In this document: one piece after another, positions 4,690-28,247 of the stretch | Position numbering within the stretch: position 1 is the stretch's first letter | How the letters are laid out: every line of letters starts with the position of its first letter | Source: a bacterium | GTDB lineage: Bacteria > Bacteroidota > Bacteroidia > B-17B0 > Aurantibacillaceae | Direction of reading: 5' to 3' | DNA length: 47,765 nucleotides | Assembly (NCBI GenBank): GCA_029945625.1 | Contig: JAQSCW010000009.1 | Span: forward strand, 1 to 47,765 | Made by a program: the position numbers and the translations under genes | Notes under the pieces: generated by a model | Database searches by the model: none | What the model was told of the DNA's origin: nothing | Seen by the model: only the letters and a program-made list of their open reading frames with translations

Positions 4690-5295
4690 ATGAAAATAAT
4701 TTGTATAGGCAGGAATTATAGTGAACATGCAAAAGAAATGAAATCGGAGGTGCCCACGGAACCTGTTTTTTTTATGAAACCCGACACGGCTTTATTAAAA
4801 GAAGACGTTTTTTATTATCCCGAGTTCACAAAAGATCTTCATCACGAAATTGAGTTGGTGTTAAAGATCAGCAAAGCGGGCAAACATATTGAAGAACAAT
4901 TCGCACATAAATATTATCAGGAAATAAGTCTTGGCATAGACTTCACCGCCAGAGACCTCCAAACACAATGCAAAGAAAAAGGATTGCCCTGGGAAAAAGC
5001 TAAAGCCTTTGATAACAGTGCACCCATTGGCACTTTTGTGAAAAAAGAGGCGCTTGATCTGAGTACTATCAATTTTGAATTAAAAATTAACGGGGTGTCG
5101 CGTCAAATAGGCAACTCTCAAGACCTGATTTTTTCTTTTGATAAAGTGATTAGTTACGTTTCAAAGTTTGTGACGTTAAAAGTGGGTGACCTCATTTATA
5201 CAGGAACTCCACAGGGCGTTGGTCCGGTGAAAATAGGGGATTCTCTTGAAGGTTTTCTGAATGGAAAAAGTAATTTTACCTTGCTCGTAAAATAG
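4690..5295 (+). CDS. Fumarylacetoacetate hydrolase (FAH) family protein, YcgM/FAHD1-like
   Basis: A 201-aa single-domain FAH-fold enzyme. The metal-binding ExE motif is HHEIELVL at 51-58 (E53, E55), with the third acidic ligand D84 in LGIDFTARD. The N-terminal MKIICIGRNYSEHAKE and the C-terminal YTGTPQGVGP are typical of the small YcgM/FAHD1 branch. Members act on acylpyruvates or oxaloacetate: decarboxylation, and removal of the enol tautomer that inhibits succinate dehydrogenase. The exact substrate cannot be decided from sequence. It is transcribed divergently from lhgO, another TCA-linked repair enzyme, which suggests a shared role. It ends at a bidirectional terminator 1 base after its stop. 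Confidence 0.88.
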   Translation: MKIICIGRNYSEHAKEMKSEVPTEPVFFMKPDTALLKEDVFYYPEFTKDLHHEIELVLKISKAGKHIEEQFAHKYYQEISLGIDFTARDLQTQCKEKGLPWEKAKAFDNSAPIGTFVKKEALDLSTINFELKINGVSRQIGNSQDLIFSFDKVISYVSKFVTLKVGDLIYTGTPQGVGPVKIGDSLEGFLNGKSNFTLLVK

Positions 5296-5296
5296 A

Positions 5297-5327
5297 AGAG
5301 GCCTCCCGTAGGAAGCCTCTTTCTTTA
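5297..5327. terminator. Bidirectional intrinsic terminator between the FAH-family gene and the lipoprotein gene
   Basis: Ten-base arms at 5297-5306 and 5311-5320 enclose a 4-nt loop. On the plus strand there is one C-A mismatch, and a T-rich tail (TTCTTTATTCTTT) follows. On the minus strand the mismatch becomes a G-U wobble, the loop becomes UACG closed by C-G (a stable UNCG tetraloop), and the tail is TCTATTTT. It therefore fits ends of both convergent genes. Confidence 0.75.
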
Positions 5328-5342
5328 TTCTTTAATCACCTT

Positions 5343-6281
5343 TTAATTAGGAATAAAACTGCTGTAAAGTAAGTTATTGGCATTTCTGATATTCGTATTA
5401 AACACGCCATTTTGATTTATAGTTTGACCCTGATAAACACCAGGTCTCCCTGTAATGATCTGGTTATTTAAATTTACAGTATCCCGAGAATGTTCGTAGT
5501 CAGCTACCCAAATATTGGCATTTTGAGAGAATCCCGGCGTGCCCGCAGCCACAGTTGATATCGTAAACATATAGGCGCCGGTGGCGTCGGTTTGGGTTTC
5601 ATAAGTTCTTGTGGTGAGCGTTCCCGGATCGTTGCTAAAATTGAGATATACTTTACGACCACCCACGGGTACATTAGTAGTGGTTATTGACACAATAGTG
5701 CCTGTCATTACTTTCTTAAGATAATTGATTGCGAGGGATCCTGAAATGGTGGCTGTTCCCAATTTTAAGGCGGTACTGGTATTTGATGAAACGGCTGTAC
5801 CTACAAATCCATAATCCAATTGAGAATTCTGACCCATAAATAATGTTCTGTTCAGAGAGGTTCCCGCATAAGTAGAATATAGTCCGGTCTTCTTTGAACC
5901 GAGTACAATGGTGTCAAGCGTACCCATGAATCCGTCGATAGTTATTTGAGCGGCCACGCCACTCGCATTACTGCGAATGTTGAGACTGTAGTTTCCAAGA
6001 GAGTCAGTCTTGGTTGAATACACGTCAGCTCCCTGAGCATTTGAATTTGGATAAAGGGAACTCTTGTTGACCTTTACCGAAACATTAACATTAGAGGCGG
6101 CAATTCTCGAGGTACTGGTCCATCCGCCTGACCCGTTGGGCGTCACAATATTCTTGTTTACATTCCCTTTTAAAAGTGTGCTGCCACTCACGTCGGTGGC
6201 AGTAAAAGTAGAACCGGTATCATCCTTTTTGCAGGTGGTGAGTGTAATTAGTGTTGCTATTGCTAGTATTGCTTTTTTCAT
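5343..6281 (-). CDS. Putative surface lipoprotein with repeated beta-sandwich (carboxypeptidase-regulatory-like) domains
   Basis: A 312-aa protein with a lipoprotein signal peptide: a short basic N-terminus, a hydrophobic core, and Cys17 in LTLTTC. The mature end reads CKKDDT. Lys followed by two acidic residues at +3 to +5 resembles the lipoprotein export signal described in Capnocytophaga and Flavobacterium, so it may be displayed on the cell surface. The body is rich in Ser, Thr and Asn. Two segments look like carboxypeptidase-regulatory/Cna-B folds, each containing a DSLGNYSL or DATGAYMF turn (about residues 93-100 and 233-240). I do not recognise a specific function. It follows the outer-membrane protein gene by 41 bp and is probably co-transcribed with it. 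Confidence 0.75.
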   Translation of the reverse strand: MKKAILAIATLITLTTCKKDDTGSTFTATDVSGSTLLKGNVNKNIVTPNGSGGWTSTSRIAASNVNVSVKVNKSSLYPNSNAQGADVYSTKTDSLGNYSLNIRSNASGVAAQITIDGFMGTLDTIVLGSKKTGLYSTYAGTSLNRTLFMGQNSQLDYGFVGTAVSSNTSTALKLGTATISGSLAINYLKKVMTGTIVSITTTNVPVGGRKVYLNFSNDPGTLTTRTYETQTDATGAYMFTISTVAAGTPGFSQNANIWVADYEHSRDTVNLNNQIITGRPGVYQGQTINQNGVFNTNIRNANNLLYSSFIPN

Positions 6282-6322
6282 GTGTGTGAATTTTATCTTA
6301 TTAGTAATTAGTTTTTTTGAAA

Positions 6323-7318
6323 TCAGAAATGAAATAAAATAGTGAGTGCTCCGGCTCCCCCGCTCAGGGAGGTGTTTCCGCCGAGAGTATTGTTCATCGA
6401 AAACACAGTGCCGTTGTTGTTATCAACCGAAAAACCTCTCTGACCTTCTCTCGCGTCTATATCTACCTCTTCTTTAAAAACTGCCGGCCCATTTTGACCG
6501 TTATTGTATACTTCCCGAGTGGAAGTAGCCGCCCGCGATCGGGTAATCGCATAACCCCAGCCGTATTCCGCCGCGATAGAAATTTTGGCAAAAATAAAAT
6601 ACTCTATTCCAATAAATCCTCTGATGCCGTAGCGCATGCCCCCGCCGTTCTTTGCTTCAAGTTCCCGTGTCACCCTGCCTGCTGATGTTGGCGTTTGAAC
6701 TGCCACCGTGAGCGCGTTAAAATTGTCGGTATATTGAACCGGGTATAGGTCAGAGAAGGCATTCCCGTATTTGAAAGACTGAACTGAACCTGTTCGGCCA
6801 ATTCCAAATTCGGCGCCATAATAGCCCTGAAGCCGGCGGTATCCTCGTCGTTTTTCATACCCCACCGAAAGTAACCAGTTATTTTTGGCAAAGGTGGCAA
6901 TATCGTCAACCCTCAGCAAAGATGCCGCATTTCTGTCATCTTGGGTACCAAAGGACGCGGTGTACATGGCTTTGGCATCCTGCACCTGGTTGGTCATAGA
7001 TCCGGACAACGTGTTAATGCCAAACCTCACTCTAATAGCAGCTTTGTCTTTCAAATAGTACTTACCAACGATTTGATTGTTTGAGTTCGCAGTGTATTGA
7101 ACCATATTGCTCGACCCGGGATAGGGCGTGGCAAAATTGATGGTTCCAAACAAAACGTCGATAATGGGAAGACAATTAAAGCCCAATCCAATATCGCCTT
7201 TTCGGGGTAGGATCTCATTGCCCTTTTTATTCTTGGGGTAGAGATCTCGAAGCGAATCCTGTGCACTTGCCAGCATTACAGCCAGCAGGGCAGCAGTAAT
7301 CATTATTTTTTTCTTCAT
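6323..7318 (-). CDS. Putative outer-membrane beta-barrel protein
   Basis: A 331-aa protein with a Sec signal peptide (MKKKIMITAALLAVMLASA, cleavage likely before QDS). The rest alternates short hydrophobic strands with polar loops, and the C-terminus ends in LTILFHF. A terminal Phe is typical of BAM-inserted outer-membrane barrels. Aromatic strands such as WLLSVGYEKRRGY and EYFIFAKISIAAEYGWGY support a barrel. No specific family is recognised. The lipoprotein gene immediately downstream (41-bp gap) may encode a partner. A promoter candidate lies at 7340-7376. Confidence 0.75.
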   Translation of the reverse strand: MKKKIMITAALLAVMLASAQDSLRDLYPKNKKGNEILPRKGDIGLGFNCLPIIDVLFGTINFATPYPGSSNMVQYTANSNNQIVGKYYLKDKAAIRVRFGINTLSGSMTNQVQDAKAMYTASFGTQDDRNAASLLRVDDIATFAKNNWLLSVGYEKRRGYRRLQGYYGAEFGIGRTGSVQSFKYGNAFSDLYPVQYTDNFNALTVAVQTPTSAGRVTRELEAKNGGGMRYGIRGFIGIEYFIFAKISIAAEYGWGYAITRSRAATSTREVYNNGQNGPAVFKEEVDIDAREGQRGFSVDNNNGTVFSMNNTLGGNTSLSGGAGALTILFHF

Positions 7319-7339
7319 GTGTTTGTGTTTAGTTGATCA

Positions 7340-7376
7340 CAAATTTAATCCCTTAAGTGAATGATGGAGCATCAAA
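7340..7376 (-). promoter_or_regulatory. Candidate promoter for the outer-membrane protein gene
   Basis: The minus strand has TAAATTTG (7340-7347), a match to TAnnTTTG, and TTTG at 7373-7376. The 25-nt spacing is slightly longer than the usual 17-23, so the -33 assignment is doubtful. The predicted leader is about 15-20 nt. Confidence 0.4.
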
Positions 7377-7464
7377 AAATCAACATAGCATTGTGTATAT
7401 CAATCTCTTACCTTATGTCGGGGACGATAATGAGGAAAAATATTTTTGGTAAGTCGGTAGTTTG

Positions 7465-7515
7465 CAGGTTATTAGATCCTGTCAGTAAAACCTGGAATAA
7501 CCCAGCTACTGGGTT
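7465..7515. other. Two small hairpins in the gap between the outer-membrane protein gene and rpoC
   Basis: CAGGTT at 7465-7470 pairs with AACCTG at 7489-7494. A perfect 7-bp stem, AACCCAG with CTGGGTT (7499-7515), has a 3-nt loop. Neither is followed by a clear T tract. The 282-bp gap otherwise holds only the rpoC terminator and the promoter candidate at 7340-7376. Confidence 0.4.
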
Positions 7516-7542
7516 GTAACCGTTAGTATCCGGAATCGTAAT

Positions 7543-7577
7543 AAAAAAGAAACGGCCTGCTTTTTGTGCAGACCGTT
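7543..7577 (-). terminator. Intrinsic terminator of the rpoBC operon
   Basis: On the minus strand, 23 nt after the rpoC stop, AACGGTCTGC pairs with GCAGGCCGTT (one G-U wobble, 10 bp, 7-nt loop), followed by TCTTTTTTTA. This is a textbook intrinsic terminator and marks the end of the large ribosomal/RNA polymerase transcription unit. Confidence 0.88.
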
Positions 7578-7600
7578 CTAATGAAATTAACTATTTGTGA

Positions 7601-11896
<4,296 letters not shown>

Positions 11897-24105: not shown

Positions 24106-25440
24106 ATGATTAAATACTTATTTATTGTAATTAATTCTATTGTACTTTTTTTTTACGGCCTCTTTAGTGGTGATAACGGAATAAGTGTTACGGGTAAAAT
24201 CCCGGCTAGCATGATCGCAGGGGAGCCGGTAGCGATTGAGATTGTGGTGAATAAAGGCGCGATGAATGGATTTGGAAAACTTCAACTTGATTTGCCGGAA
24301 GGATTTGAGGTGAAGGAGGCCGATGAAAAAGGTGCTACGTATTCGTATTCAAATGGCATTGCAAAATGGTTGTGGGCTGTTTTACCTATGGAAAGTGAAA
24401 TTAGCATACACTTAACAATTGTGCCCTCGGCTGAAAATTTGGGAAACAAAACAATAGGCGCCAAATATTCCTATGTTGAAAATAATGTGAAGCAAGTAGT
24501 TGAAATGAATTCGGCAGAAGTAACGGTATTGGCCCCCGGTTCACAATTATTAAGTTCGGTAACTCCCACCGAAGCAGGAACGCCCGTAACAGCCACCAAA
24601 GACAGTTTGCTGGCTCAAACCACCGTGTCGGTAGAGAGTAATAATGAACCCCCGGGTGATATTACAGCAACCAGAAAAATAGAAACAGGAAATTCTTCCG
24701 CTGAACAAGTAGTGACCGTGAACATTAGAAAAGGCATAACCCGAGGGTTTGCAAGATACAGCGACGACTTGCCTGCCGGCGTGATTGTAAAAGGAGCCAA
24801 AACGGATGGCGCTTCATTTTCAGTGGCGGATGGTAAAATAAAATTTGTGTGGGTGAGTGTTCCGGAAAAGGAGAACCTCGAAATATCCTACTCGATTAGT
24901 AGCTCAACCAATCAAACAATTACCCTTCAGGGAGAGTATTCTTATTTGGAAGACAACCAAAGCAAAAAATATAAGCTAGTGGCGGAGACGCTCGGATTTG
25001 AAACACCGATTGATCTTGTTGAAAAAACTCAGGAACCTAAAGAGCCCGCAAAACCTCAGGGGCAACCTGTTGTGGCGAAAGTGGAAACTGTATCTACAGG
25101 TGTCGCCAATTCAAAAAAGAGACCCGCTACAGTGATTGAAAAGAAAGAAGGTAATCTTGAGTTTCTGGTACAGGTCGGCGCTTTTTCCCGAATAAAAGTA
25201 ACTACGAAGCGGCTCGAAAAAAAATTCAAGATCAGCGAGACTATAAAGAGCGAGATGATGGGTGGGTACACGAAATTTATGGTGGGGTCACATAATGACT
25301 ATAAAACTGCAAGAGAGCATAGAACAAGCATGGTAGATGAGAACGGAGTAAAGACTGCATTTGTAGTGGCTTACAACCAAGGAAAAAGAGTTACCGTACA
25401 GGAAGCATTAATGATTACGAATCAAAAGTGGTTCAGATAA
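24106..25440 (+). CDS. Envelope protein with two copies of a beta-rich domain and a C-terminal SPOR domain
   Basis: A 444-aa protein. I chose ATG 24106 over an upstream TTG (24088) because it places a hydrophobic signal/anchor segment at residues 3-21. Residues about 29-140 and 186-295 are two copies of one domain. Compare KGAMNGFGKLQLDLPEGF with KGITRGFARYSDDLPAGV, and the motif A-x-YSY in the first with E-YSYLED in the second. A Lys/Pro-rich linker (about 300-348) leads to a SPOR-like domain (351-430: FLVQVGAFSR to AFVVAYNQGKR). SPOR domains bind denuded peptidoglycan. It is probably periplasmic and anchored to the inner membrane. I do not recognise the duplicated domain. The next gene, 32 bp downstream, also ends in SPOR-like units. 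Confidence 0.8.
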   Translation: MIKYLFIVINSIVLFFYGLFSGDNGISVTGKIPASMIAGEPVAIEIVVNKGAMNGFGKLQLDLPEGFEVKEADEKGATYSYSNGIAKWLWAVLPMESEISIHLTIVPSAENLGNKTIGAKYSYVENNVKQVVEMNSAEVTVLAPGSQLLSSVTPTEAGTPVTATKDSLLAQTTVSVESNNEPPGDITATRKIETGNSSAEQVVTVNIRKGITRGFARYSDDLPAGVIVKGAKTDGASFSVADGKIKFVWVSVPEKENLEISYSISSSTNQTITLQGEYSYLEDNQSKKYKLVAETLGFETPIDLVEKTQEPKEPAKPQGQPVVAKVETVSTGVANSKKRPATVIEKKEGNLEFLVQVGAFSRIKVTTKRLEKKFKISETIKSEMMGGYTKFMVGSHNDYKTAREHRTSMVDENGVKTAFVVAYNQGKRVTVQEALMITNQKWFR

Positions 25441-25472
25441 AAAAAAAAGCTATTTTTACAGATAATTAATTT

Positions 25473-28247
25473 ATGAAGAGCCTTCTTCTGTTTCTTTTAT
25501 GCAGTATTTCCCTGTCTGTTTGCGCACAGACGGATACTACCAAACAACTCACGGCGATTGATTCGCTGATGATGTCCAACCTGGACTCACTTGCCCATAC
25601 GCCTATTATCCAGGACACCACCAAAGCTAAAGTGGCAAAAAAAGATTCTGTGAAACAAGCGGTGATCGTAGCCGATACCTCTAAGAAGTTCACTGCAACA
25701 AAAGACTCCATTAAACCGGCGGTTGTACTAAAGGATTCGATCCAGCCCCCTGCTGCGGTAAAGGATTCAATAAAACCAGTGGTTCTTTCTCCGGATTCTA
25801 TTAAACCCCCATTGGCAGTGAAAGACTCTATTAGTCCGGTAAAACCGCTGCAGGACAGTATTAAACCTATAGTGGCCCGAATGGATTCCGTTGCGGCGCC
25901 CCCTCTGGAAAAGGACACGGTGAAGCCCATGTATATTCTGGTAGATGACAGCCTCCGATATCAATCGATTCGATTAAGTAAAGATTCTATCAAATATGCG
26001 CGACTCGACAGTTTGACCGAAGAACAACTATTGGCCTATTATCTCACCGAACCCGAACCGGCGGTGTCTTCAAAAGGCAGTATTAAGGGGGACTCGCTGT
26101 ATTTTGTTTTAAATCCCCTTACTATTCCTACCACTACCGTTAACGGGAGCACTATGTTCCGGGAAATTTCGGAGGAGCAGCAGGTGCTTCCTGATACGTC
26201 CAAGGCTGCAATGGAGCAGCAAATGAGACCCAAAATTTCCATAGGTATCGGCAGACTAGGTTTTCACGGAGATTTGAATAACAAACAGTATCAGCCCACA
26301 CTGGGAGGAAGACCAGCCTTTGATCTTGCTATTTCACAGCGACTAACTCCTTTTTTACAACTTGATTTCAATATGTTATTTGGGAGGATAGCTGTTAATG
26401 AAAACACTGCCGCAAGACAAGCCAATATTAGAACTGATATTAGGGCAGGAGGCGTAAATCTTCTTTACGACTTTGGCAACTTTATTCCTGATAACTACCG
26501 AATTCGTCCGTTTGTAAGTTTTGGGGTATACGGCTTTGAGTTTTTGAGTAAAACAGACCTGAAAGACAAGAACGGAAACACGTATTTCTATTGGAGCGAT
26601 GGCTCAGTAAAGGATAAAGCAGAAGGTACTGCCGATGCGCAATACGCCAATACCCTGACGCGCGACTACATCTACGAAAGTGACGTGAGGGAGCAGAACC
26701 TCGACGGATTTGGAAAATACCGCGAATCAGCCTGGTCTTTTCCTATTGGAGCAGGGGTGGTCATGAAAATTCACGACAGAATAGACATGAAAATTAATTA
26801 CCAATATTATCTGTCGACTACTGACTATATTGACGGTATTACAGAGAATAGTGTTGGCGCTAGAAAAGGGAACAAACGAAATGATAATTTTTCGTATGCT
26901 TCCATTTCACTTCAATACGATCTGATTGCGAAGAAACCGCAACGTGAGCGCAAATTAAATGATACTGTTGATTTCAACGATGCTTATTTGATGGCGTTAT
27001 TTAATAAAGATTCTGATAATGACAGTATCATCGATGTGAACGACGCTTGTCAGGGTACACCGGAAGGCGTTATAGTAGACCTTAAAGGGTGCCCGCTTGA
27101 TGGGGACAATGACGGGGTGCCCGATTTTAAAGACGATGAATTACAATCGCCGCAAGGAATTGGCGTTAATCTGAAAGGTGTGGCACGTACCGATGAATAC
27201 TGGCAAAACTGGTACGATCAATACATGAATGACTCGCTAGGTGGAGACAGGATCACCGAATACACCGGAAACATTTATGCGATCGCAAAAAAGAAGGAAC
27301 TAAAGAAAGATCCATTCACAGTTGAGTTGATGAGATACAACGGAGCGATTCCTTCCGATGAATTGGCATTCTTATTGAGCATTGGTGACATTAACTCAAC
27401 CACTCTTGAAGATGGCACTACAGTGGTGTATACGAGCGGTAACTACGACAAACTTGGTAAGGCCATTAAACGACGTGATGAATTCAGAGAAGAAGGGAAT
27501 AAGAAGGCAGGCGTTTCTATGTTTAAAGACAAGGATGTGGTGCAGCTTCCTGAAGATGAATTGGAAAGTTTGTTGAAGAATGAAATTGAAGACTTGTTAA
27601 AATTAAGCATTGGTGATAGTAATACTGCGGTAGCAACCAATCCGGACGAAGCATTTAACAAAAATGAGATTGTTTACAGGGTGCAATTGGGCGCATTTAG
27701 CAGAAAAATATCTACCAGTTTATTTGGAACTACTACCGGTGTATTAGAATTAAAAACAGGCGATAAGATTTACAAATACGTGACAAAGGGTTACCCAACT
27801 ATTGAGGAAGCAGCGGCGGTGAGAGCTGATTTGGTTTTGCAGGGCTTCAATGACGCATTTGTAACCGCTTATCGCGGAGGAAGAAGAATTCCAATGAGTG
27901 AAACCAAAGCTACCGTTGACAAGAACTACAAGGAAGATCTCAGTGAGGATAAGACCTTTAACTCAATTGATAAGTCTTTACTTGTTTTCAAAGTCCAGCT
28001 AGGTCAATTGAAGAAAAAAGTACAGGAGGCATCCATGGACGAACGTGTGAAGGACCTGAAAGATTCGGAAAAGAAAATCACCAATTCTGGTTCTATCAGA
28101 TATACCAGCGGAAACTTCCCGGGACTGGAATTAGCGGAAGAGTACCGGAAAGCGCTTGAAGAAAAAGGATGGTCGGATGCGTTTGTGATCGCCACATTTA
28201 AGGATGAGCTCATCTCCATGCAGGAAGCCATGGAGCTCTTGAAATAG
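25473..28247 (+). CDS. Outer-membrane barrel protein with decapeptide-repeat linker, TSP3-type repeats and three SPOR-like units
   Basis: A 924-aa secreted protein with a signal peptide (cleavage likely after SVCA, residue 18). Residues 57-156 are ten decapeptide repeats of the type KDSIKPxxxx. About 254-486 looks like an outer-membrane beta-barrel (GIGRLGFHGDLNN to SYASISLQYDL). Residues 512-556 carry calcium-type aspartate-rich repeats (DSDNDSIIDVNDACQGTPEG, then DGDNDGVPDFKDD), as in OmpA-like proteins. Instead of an OmpA peptidoglycan domain there are three SPOR-like units: 615-690, 734-806 (VYRVQLGAFSR) and 837-921 (VFKVQLGQL). It probably links the outer membrane to peptidoglycan. It lies 32 bp after a SPOR-domain gene and is convergent with the next gene, with 5 bp between stops. 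Confidence 0.82.
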   Translation: MKSLLLFLLCSISLSVCAQTDTTKQLTAIDSLMMSNLDSLAHTPIIQDTTKAKVAKKDSVKQAVIVADTSKKFTATKDSIKPAVVLKDSIQPPAAVKDSIKPVVLSPDSIKPPLAVKDSISPVKPLQDSIKPIVARMDSVAAPPLEKDTVKPMYILVDDSLRYQSIRLSKDSIKYARLDSLTEEQLLAYYLTEPEPAVSSKGSIKGDSLYFVLNPLTIPTTTVNGSTMFREISEEQQVLPDTSKAAMEQQMRPKISIGIGRLGFHGDLNNKQYQPTLGGRPAFDLAISQRLTPFLQLDFNMLFGRIAVNENTAARQANIRTDIRAGGVNLLYDFGNFIPDNYRIRPFVSFGVYGFEFLSKTDLKDKNGNTYFYWSDGSVKDKAEGTADAQYANTLTRDYIYESDVREQNLDGFGKYRESAWSFPIGAGVVMKIHDRIDMKINYQYYLSTTDYIDGITENSVGARKGNKRNDNFSYASISLQYDLIAKKPQRERKLNDTVDFNDAYLMALFNKDSDNDSIIDVNDACQGTPEGVIVDLKGCPLDGDNDGVPDFKDDELQSPQGIGVNLKGVARTDEYWQNWYDQYMNDSLGGDRITEYTGNIYAIAKKKELKKDPFTVELMRYNGAIPSDELAFLLSIGDINSTTLEDGTTVVYTSGNYDKLGKAIKRRDEFREEGNKKAGVSMFKDKDVVQLPEDELESLLKNEIEDLLKLSIGDSNTAVATNPDEAFNKNEIVYRVQLGAFSRKISTSLFGTTTGVLELKTGDKIYKYVTKGYPTIEEAAAVRADLVLQGFNDAFVTAYRGGRRIPMSETKATVDKNYKEDLSEDKTFNSIDKSLLVFKVQLGQLKKKVQEASMDERVKDLKDSEKKITNSGSIRYTSGNFPGLELAEEYRKALEEKGWSDAFVIATFKDELISMQEAMELLK
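25641..25940 (+). repeat. In-frame 30-bp repeat coding ten decapeptides
   Basis: Residues 57-156 of the 924-aa protein divide without gaps into ten 10-residue units: KDSVKQAVIV, ADTSKKFTAT, KDSIKPAVVL, KDSIQPPAAV, KDSIKPVVLS, PDSIKPPLAV, KDSISPVKPL, QDSIKPIVAR, MDSVAAPPLE, KDTVKPMYIL. The DNA copies differ at many synonymous sites (AAAGACTCC, AAGGATTCG, AAGGATTCA), so the peptide is conserved while the DNA has diverged. Confidence 0.85.

Follow-up and report, generated by a model that had tools for sequence, protein, structure and literature searches.

A predicted OmpA-type barrel protein bearing three SPOR-like units, and its conserved gene partner in Bacteroidota

Organization of the P2 and P1 genes

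The window, which is the whole 47,765-nucleotide contig JAQSCW010000009.1 (contig C9) of an Aurantibacillaceae assembly (GCA_029945625.1; 4.12 Mb, rated 100% complete), carries two adjacent forward-strand genes that we refer to as P2 and P1. P2 (24088–25440) codes for 450 aa if read from a TTG codon, the ATG at 24106 being the likelier start, and its product contains two segments followed by a SPOR-like unit (25141–25437), which has no Pfam match of its own. The label Ig-like for segment 2 (24655–25002) comes from one sub-threshold Pfam match, to Ig_NUP210_2nd (E 0.0087), and is extended by analogy to segment 1 (24175–24531); both are best read as putative.

P1 (25473–28247) starts 32 nt beyond the P2 stop codon and encodes a protein of 924 aa. 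A signal peptide, MKSLLLFLLCSISLSVCAQ, can be read from the sequence at about residues 1–19 (25473–25529), and is followed by a poorly conserved linker, rich in DS and containing a 10-residue repeat (residues 20–244; 25530–26204), a predicted eight-stranded OmpA/OprF-type barrel (about residues 245–490; 26205–26942), TSP3-type repeats (about residues 505–570; 26985–27182) and three SPOR-like units. This order of parts had been proposed in the original prediction, and is borne out by the sequence, Pfam and AlphaFold together. Of 13 relatives compared, 12 have a hydrophobic N-terminus that ends similarly, the one exception (L028) being called from a later start. In the linker the DS pairs are found at residues 78, 88, 98, 108, 118, 128 and 138, a regular 10-residue spacing, and no tandem repeat was found there at the DNA level by TRF. 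A reverse-strand open reading frame (25466–25930, 154 aa) overlies the linker and is probably a shadow of the repeat.

The barrel and its stalk

The Pfam model OMP_b-brl matches P1 at E 2e-4 and 22 bits, under its cut-off of 28.7. An AlphaFold model of residues 240–600, made with 16 related sequences and of middling confidence (mean pLDDT 67.1, pTM 0.48), contains eight long strands and resembles E. coli OmpA with Z scores of 16.3–17.8 (9a2m, 1bxw, 9fzc and 9fzd), including Z 17.8 for 9a2m and Z 16.5 for 1bxw (rmsd 2.9 over 167 residues); some OmpA NMR entries give lower Z scores. The OprF barrel (4rlc) follows at Z 15.2, and Foldseek places an OmpA barrel in first rank (E 3e-8). P1 is thus predicted to contain an OmpA/OprF-fold barrel of eight strands. 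The TSP3 match of the stalk is weak (11.8 bits against a Pfam cut-off of 25), and TSP3 is over the cut-off in two relatives (L065:8384-10630 and L063:6102-7595). A sequence search of the PDB gives an OmpA-family match to the stalk at E 0.12, and a TSP3-type stalk is shared by P1 and the genome's own OmpA-domain protein on contig C2.

It had been suggested that the three SPOR-like units replace an OmpA domain. This holds for P1 itself, in which Pfam gives no OmpA-domain (PF00691) match at E values up to 1, but not for the genome as a whole, which has 29 OmpA-domain matches, 27 of them over the Pfam cut-off and none on contig C9. P1 is therefore like OmpA and OprF in its predicted barrel fold (Z 15–18) and in the order of its parts, but has SPOR-like units where those proteins have the C-terminal wall-binding OmpA domain. 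Fjoh OmpA is described in PMC12611786 as an eight-strand protein by which the outer membrane is anchored to the wall of the cell. The Flavobacterium BAM complex includes BamP, which we considered as a possible relative and dropped, since the same paper describes this subunit as periplasmic and as binding BamA and BamD.

The barrel also raises a possible link to the T9SS, in which P1 would be an accessory barrel related to PorG and would tie the secretion machine to the wall, its SPOR-like units taking the role of the OmpA domain of PorE. The NCBIfam PorG model (NF052316) gives a partial match to the P1 barrel at E 1e-11, relatives match DUF6089 over the cut-off, and a true PorG is present in the genome. 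However, P1 scores only 44.8 bits against the NF052316 cut-off of 130, the true PorG is encoded elsewhere (contig C50, 179 bits), and a Pfam scan of ten other proteins encoded in the window recognised no T9SS part among them. We therefore reject the identification of P1 as PorG, and an accessory role in the T9SS seems very unlikely. According to PMC7463736, PorE is a T9SS lipoprotein with TPR, propeller, CRD and OmpA domain; P1 is comparable to it as a likely Bacteroidota wall anchor on the outer-membrane side, but differs in being a predicted barrel and in having no TPR, propeller or CRD match.

Three SPOR-like units

SPOR domains have been described in division proteins of the inner membrane, in lipoproteins and in amidases, and in other bacteria they bind wall strands that have been stripped for division. 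The C-terminal part of P1 contains three candidate units of this kind, at residues 615–691 (unit 1; 27315–27545), 733–806 (unit 2; 27669–27890) and 837–924 (unit 3; 27981–28244). Pfam SPOR (PF05036) matches the whole protein with 29.8 bits, over the cut-off of 21; searched alone, unit 2 scores 25.1 bits, unit 3 scores 17.1 (under the cut-off), and unit 1 has no SPOR match, nor does unit 1 of the relatives L065 and L007.

Structure prediction of this region had been put forward as a check on the SPOR assignment, and it came out in favor. In an AlphaFold model of residues 566–924, made with 15 related sequences and likewise of middling confidence (mean pLDDT 67.6, pTM 0.47), the order beta-alpha-beta-beta-alpha-beta occurs three times over, and both unit 2 and unit 3 resemble SPOR domains of known structure. 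Unit 2 aligns with the CwlC SPOR domain (Z 8.0, rmsd 1.9 over 71 residues) and with the RlpA SPOR domain bound to denuded glycan (6i09; Z 7.5, rmsd 1.9 over 68 residues), and unit 3 with that of DamX (Z 6.0, rmsd 3.3 over 77 residues). Unit 3 is also matched at Z 7.5 by 6ozd, an exported protein of burkholderial origin; that entry aside, structures without a SPOR name start at Z 4.9, so that DedD (Z 4.7) and FtsN (Z 4.3) are within the range of unrelated entries. The top Foldseek rows are RNA-binding RRM domains, which have the same general fold, with CwlC at rank 15 (E 0.036, probability 1.00), and a PDB sequence search gives a weak CwlC match (E 0.25). Structural matches barely cover unit 1.

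Profile comparisons with hhalign link the units to one another (units 1 and 2, E 1e-19; units 1 and 3, 3e-16; units 2 and 3, 9e-28), with control values of 0.58 for unit 1 against the barrel and 0.22 against the first Ig-like segment; with narrower profiles the links of unit 1 are far weaker (0.001 and 6.5e-5). These alignments indicate that the three units are mutually homologous, and the models that units 2 and 3 have the SPOR fold; unit 1 is SPOR-like by virtue of its predicted topology in the three-unit model and its hhalign matches to units 2 and 3. The original prediction also described each unit as ending in DAFV.A or a close variant, which is true of units 2 and 3 (45 and 38 of 48 homologues, respectively) but not of unit 1 (none of 48).

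The number of units differs among relatives, with two in L070 and about six in L073, and the valency is therefore not fixed. The L073 protein (5164–8754, reverse strand; 1196 aa) has one strong Pfam SPOR match, of 65.6 bits.

FtsN, DamX and DedD of E. coli sit in the inner membrane. They share the SPOR fold with P1 but differ from it in location, P1 being predicted in the outer membrane. In RlpA, as predicted for P1, SPOR is tied to the outer membrane. PMC6895207 describes RlpA as a lytic transglycosylase that is anchored by lipid and has a single SPOR domain, unlike P1, which is a predicted integral barrel with three units and no recognised enzyme domain.

Conservation of glycan-contact residues

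The same paper reports that in RlpA the residues whose side chains hold denuded glycan are Q270, R302 and R309, that R311 belongs to a basic patch with them, and that the Q270-type Gln is highly conserved, its DamX equivalent being Q351 (PMC6895207). With the structurally aligned ranges read as gapless, RlpA Q270 is matched by P1 residue 738, the Gln of unit 2, and DamX Q351 by P1 residue 842, the Gln of unit 3. The equivalent of R309 is our own assignment from hhalign and strand position, and is less certain than that of Q270.

Contact positions were compared in 48 of 52 homologues, L013, L070, L072 and L074 being dropped because three units in order were not found in them. Unit 2 has the Gln in 48/48 and a basic residue (Arg, Lys or His) in 48/48, and unit 3 has the Gln in 48/48 and Arg or Lys in 47/48. 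By contrast, unit 1 has Glu in 43, Leu in two, Lys in two and Gln in one at the Q270 position, and its basic position is never basic. The picture is similar before dropping, with Gln in 51 of 52 for unit 2 (Glu in the other) and 51 of 51 for unit 3, and in unit 1 Glu in 44, Leu in four, Lys in two, Gln in one and a gap in one. The position of RlpA F274 is Phe or Tyr in all 52 in unit 2; unit 3 does not keep it, most homologues having Ala, Pro or Ser there, which is a point against the tether proposed below. Judged by these residues, units 2 and 3 keep the Gln and basic patch of SPOR domains and unit 1 has lost both, so P1 probably works as a bivalent SPOR anchor, with two working units instead of three and the remaining one degenerate. 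This reading carries a prediction at the level of residues, that units 2 and 3 bind and unit 1 does not.

The loss in unit 1 could also be taken to mean that SPOR-like units are protein–protein contact domains that bind no glycan, with P1 and P2 forming a periplasmic scaffold, and the frequent pairing of the two genes and the putative Ig-like segments of P2 would suit such an arrangement. It is argued against by the Gln and basic residue, which are kept almost without exception in units 2 and 3 and also in the P2 unit (Gln in 45/45 homologues and Lys in 45/45), and we consider it improbable.

Linkage and distribution of P1 and P2

The upstream SPOR protein had been named as a possible companion of P1, and genome comparisons support a conserved partnership. 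Among 44 loci (29 from the genus of the window and 15 from wider genome contigs, L003/L050 and L004/L045 being duplicates) a P2 match lies beside P1 in 41; it is absent at L012 and L048, and L049 starts inside P1. All 35 measured pairs are on one strand, with gaps of -13 to 189 nt, of which 29 are 24–36 nt. P2 relatives are present in ten of 12 regions from other families, and a barrel with SPOR-like units in 11. The 15 named P1 relatives are from metagenome-assembled genomes that carry the labels Bacteroidetes, Bacteroidota, Bacteroidia, Sphingobacteriaceae and, in one case, Chitinophaga pinensis.

In a survey of 149 genomes of the class, P1 is matched in 70 at E 1e-40, a number that includes same-family barrel proteins without SPOR units, and P2 in 60 at E 1e-15, including partial matches. 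Both are matched in 54 genomes, P1 only in 16 and P2 only in six (odds ratio 41, uncorrected for kinship). A match reaching at least P1 residue 800, nearly through unit 2 or beyond, is seen in 37 of the 70 genomes, among the matches listed. In 49 of the 54 genomes P2 has a same-strand barrel match no more than 1.5 kb away, downstream of P2 as in the window in 43 and only upstream in six, and the two are apart in the remaining five. These comparisons indicate that P2 is a conserved partner of P1. With the pair as common as this, a cultivable relative that carries it should exist. No P1-type protein was found in three of 37 genus genomes (G004, G005 and G024), two of which are rated 93% and 99% complete, and P1 is thus not indispensable.

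A further barrel gene adjoins P2 in seven of the 12 other-family regions. This third gene, adjoining P2 or P1, encodes the same barrel and TSP3 repeats with an EF-hand-like tail, often ending FFEQ. Examples are L065 5540–6883, L067 8586–9923 and L012 8884–10200, with arrays in L063 and L064; at L012 the gene is upstream of P1 in place of P2. In five of the seven regions the tail is recognised, by Pfam in L067, L063 and L064 and by eye in L065 and L071. In the genome of the window the query meets only P1 and the OmpA-domain protein on C2, and no EF-hand barrel was found.

Other SPOR-like proteins of the genome

A unit of the P1 kind also ends an Amidase_3 protein of 535 aa (L078 1483–3090, reverse strand; contig C10), where it is not recognised by Pfam but has, by eye, Gln and Lys at the contact positions. 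Of 60 genomes, 55 have a relative of this amidase at E 1e-30, and among the matches listed the alignment runs through the C-terminal unit (to at least residue 528 of 534) in 24 of 37 genus genomes. Amidase_3-class enzymes make denuded glycan, and such strands, from which amidases have removed the peptides, are concentrated at the division septum.

Two PD40 proteins encoded on contig C23 have SPOR-like units as well. One ends in such a unit; the other, of 2112 aa (L059 5221–11559, reverse strand), has TPR, PD40 and CRD-like parts, a long coiled-looking stretch and, at its end, three SPOR-like units, and SPOR matches occur in similarly long frames across relatives. Its TPR, PD40 and CRD-like front is like that of PorE, but SPOR-like units stand where PorE has its OmpA domain (PMC7463736).

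The presence of SPOR-like units on two PD40 proteins suggests that here they may anchor proteins to the wall in general instead of marking the septum, and that P1 could be a general OmpA-like outer-membrane-to-wall anchor whose units bind the wall all round the cell. The barrel and stalk, as in OmpA-like proteins, and the dispensability of P1 in some relatives are in line with this. Against it, units 2 and 3 strictly conserve the contact residues linked with denuded glycan, and with 27 OmpA domains already in the genome a second general anchor would seem redundant. We regard a purely general anchor as rather unlikely.

A candidate tether between outer membrane and septal wall

To our knowledge the constriction of the outer membrane at division has been little studied in Bacteroidota. 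A SPOR domain of Cytophaga hutchinsonii reportedly goes to the E. coli septum. In the open-licence literature, at the level of titles and abstract starts, we found no report of a barrel-SPOR protein, nor of glycan binding or localisation of P1-type members, and PMC5053529 contains no word beginning with SPOR.

The explanation that we favor, with somewhat more confidence than doubt, is that P1 is an OmpA-like tether from outer membrane to wall, aimed at denuded glycan and division sites, and acts with P2. The tether itself is likely, and the septal aim is plausible; that TolB_N has no match in the genome, with positive controls, also speaks for this explanation. The barrel would seat P1 in the outer membrane; from there the stalk of TSP3 repeats and the linkers would cross the periplasm to the wall, where units 2 and 3 together would grip amidase-denuded strands in a firm two-point hold; this reading with two anchors follows from the contact residues being kept in units 2 and 3 and lost in unit 1. 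Unit 1 is probably a spacer, a docking face or a protein-binding surface. Amidases, one of them with a P1-type unit, would make the ligand at the septum, and since denuded strands are made and concentrated there, P1 and P2 should gather there too. P1 could then pull the outer membrane inward as it follows the wall in its constriction, and P2, through its own SPOR-like unit, would probably bind the same patch of wall or P1 itself. An integral barrel with a SPOR wall-binding part would directly link the outer membrane to the wall at the division site. The original prediction is thus upheld as to an OmpA-type barrel with a SPOR-like C-terminus and a conserved partner, but the number of working SPOR units is probably two and not three.

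A more far-reaching version is that P1 and P2 form the core of a TolB-independent constriction system, in which P2 would be held in the inner membrane by an uncleaved hydrophobic N-terminus, both proteins would grip denuded glycan, and the amidase would be recruited by the same kind of unit; both membranes would then be coupled to the septal wall. TolB_N has no match in the genome of the window, and the control searches are positive in three of 14 genomes, one of them a Bacteroides. We think this version unlikely.

Among the other SPOR-like proteins of the genome, we note a P2 paralogue on contig C2 (L061 3925–5217, reverse strand), which combines a single Ig-like segment with a SPOR domain recognised by Pfam and adjoins a gene read by eye as groEL. 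An HU-CCDC81-SPOR protein is also encoded on C2, apart from this P2-like gene.
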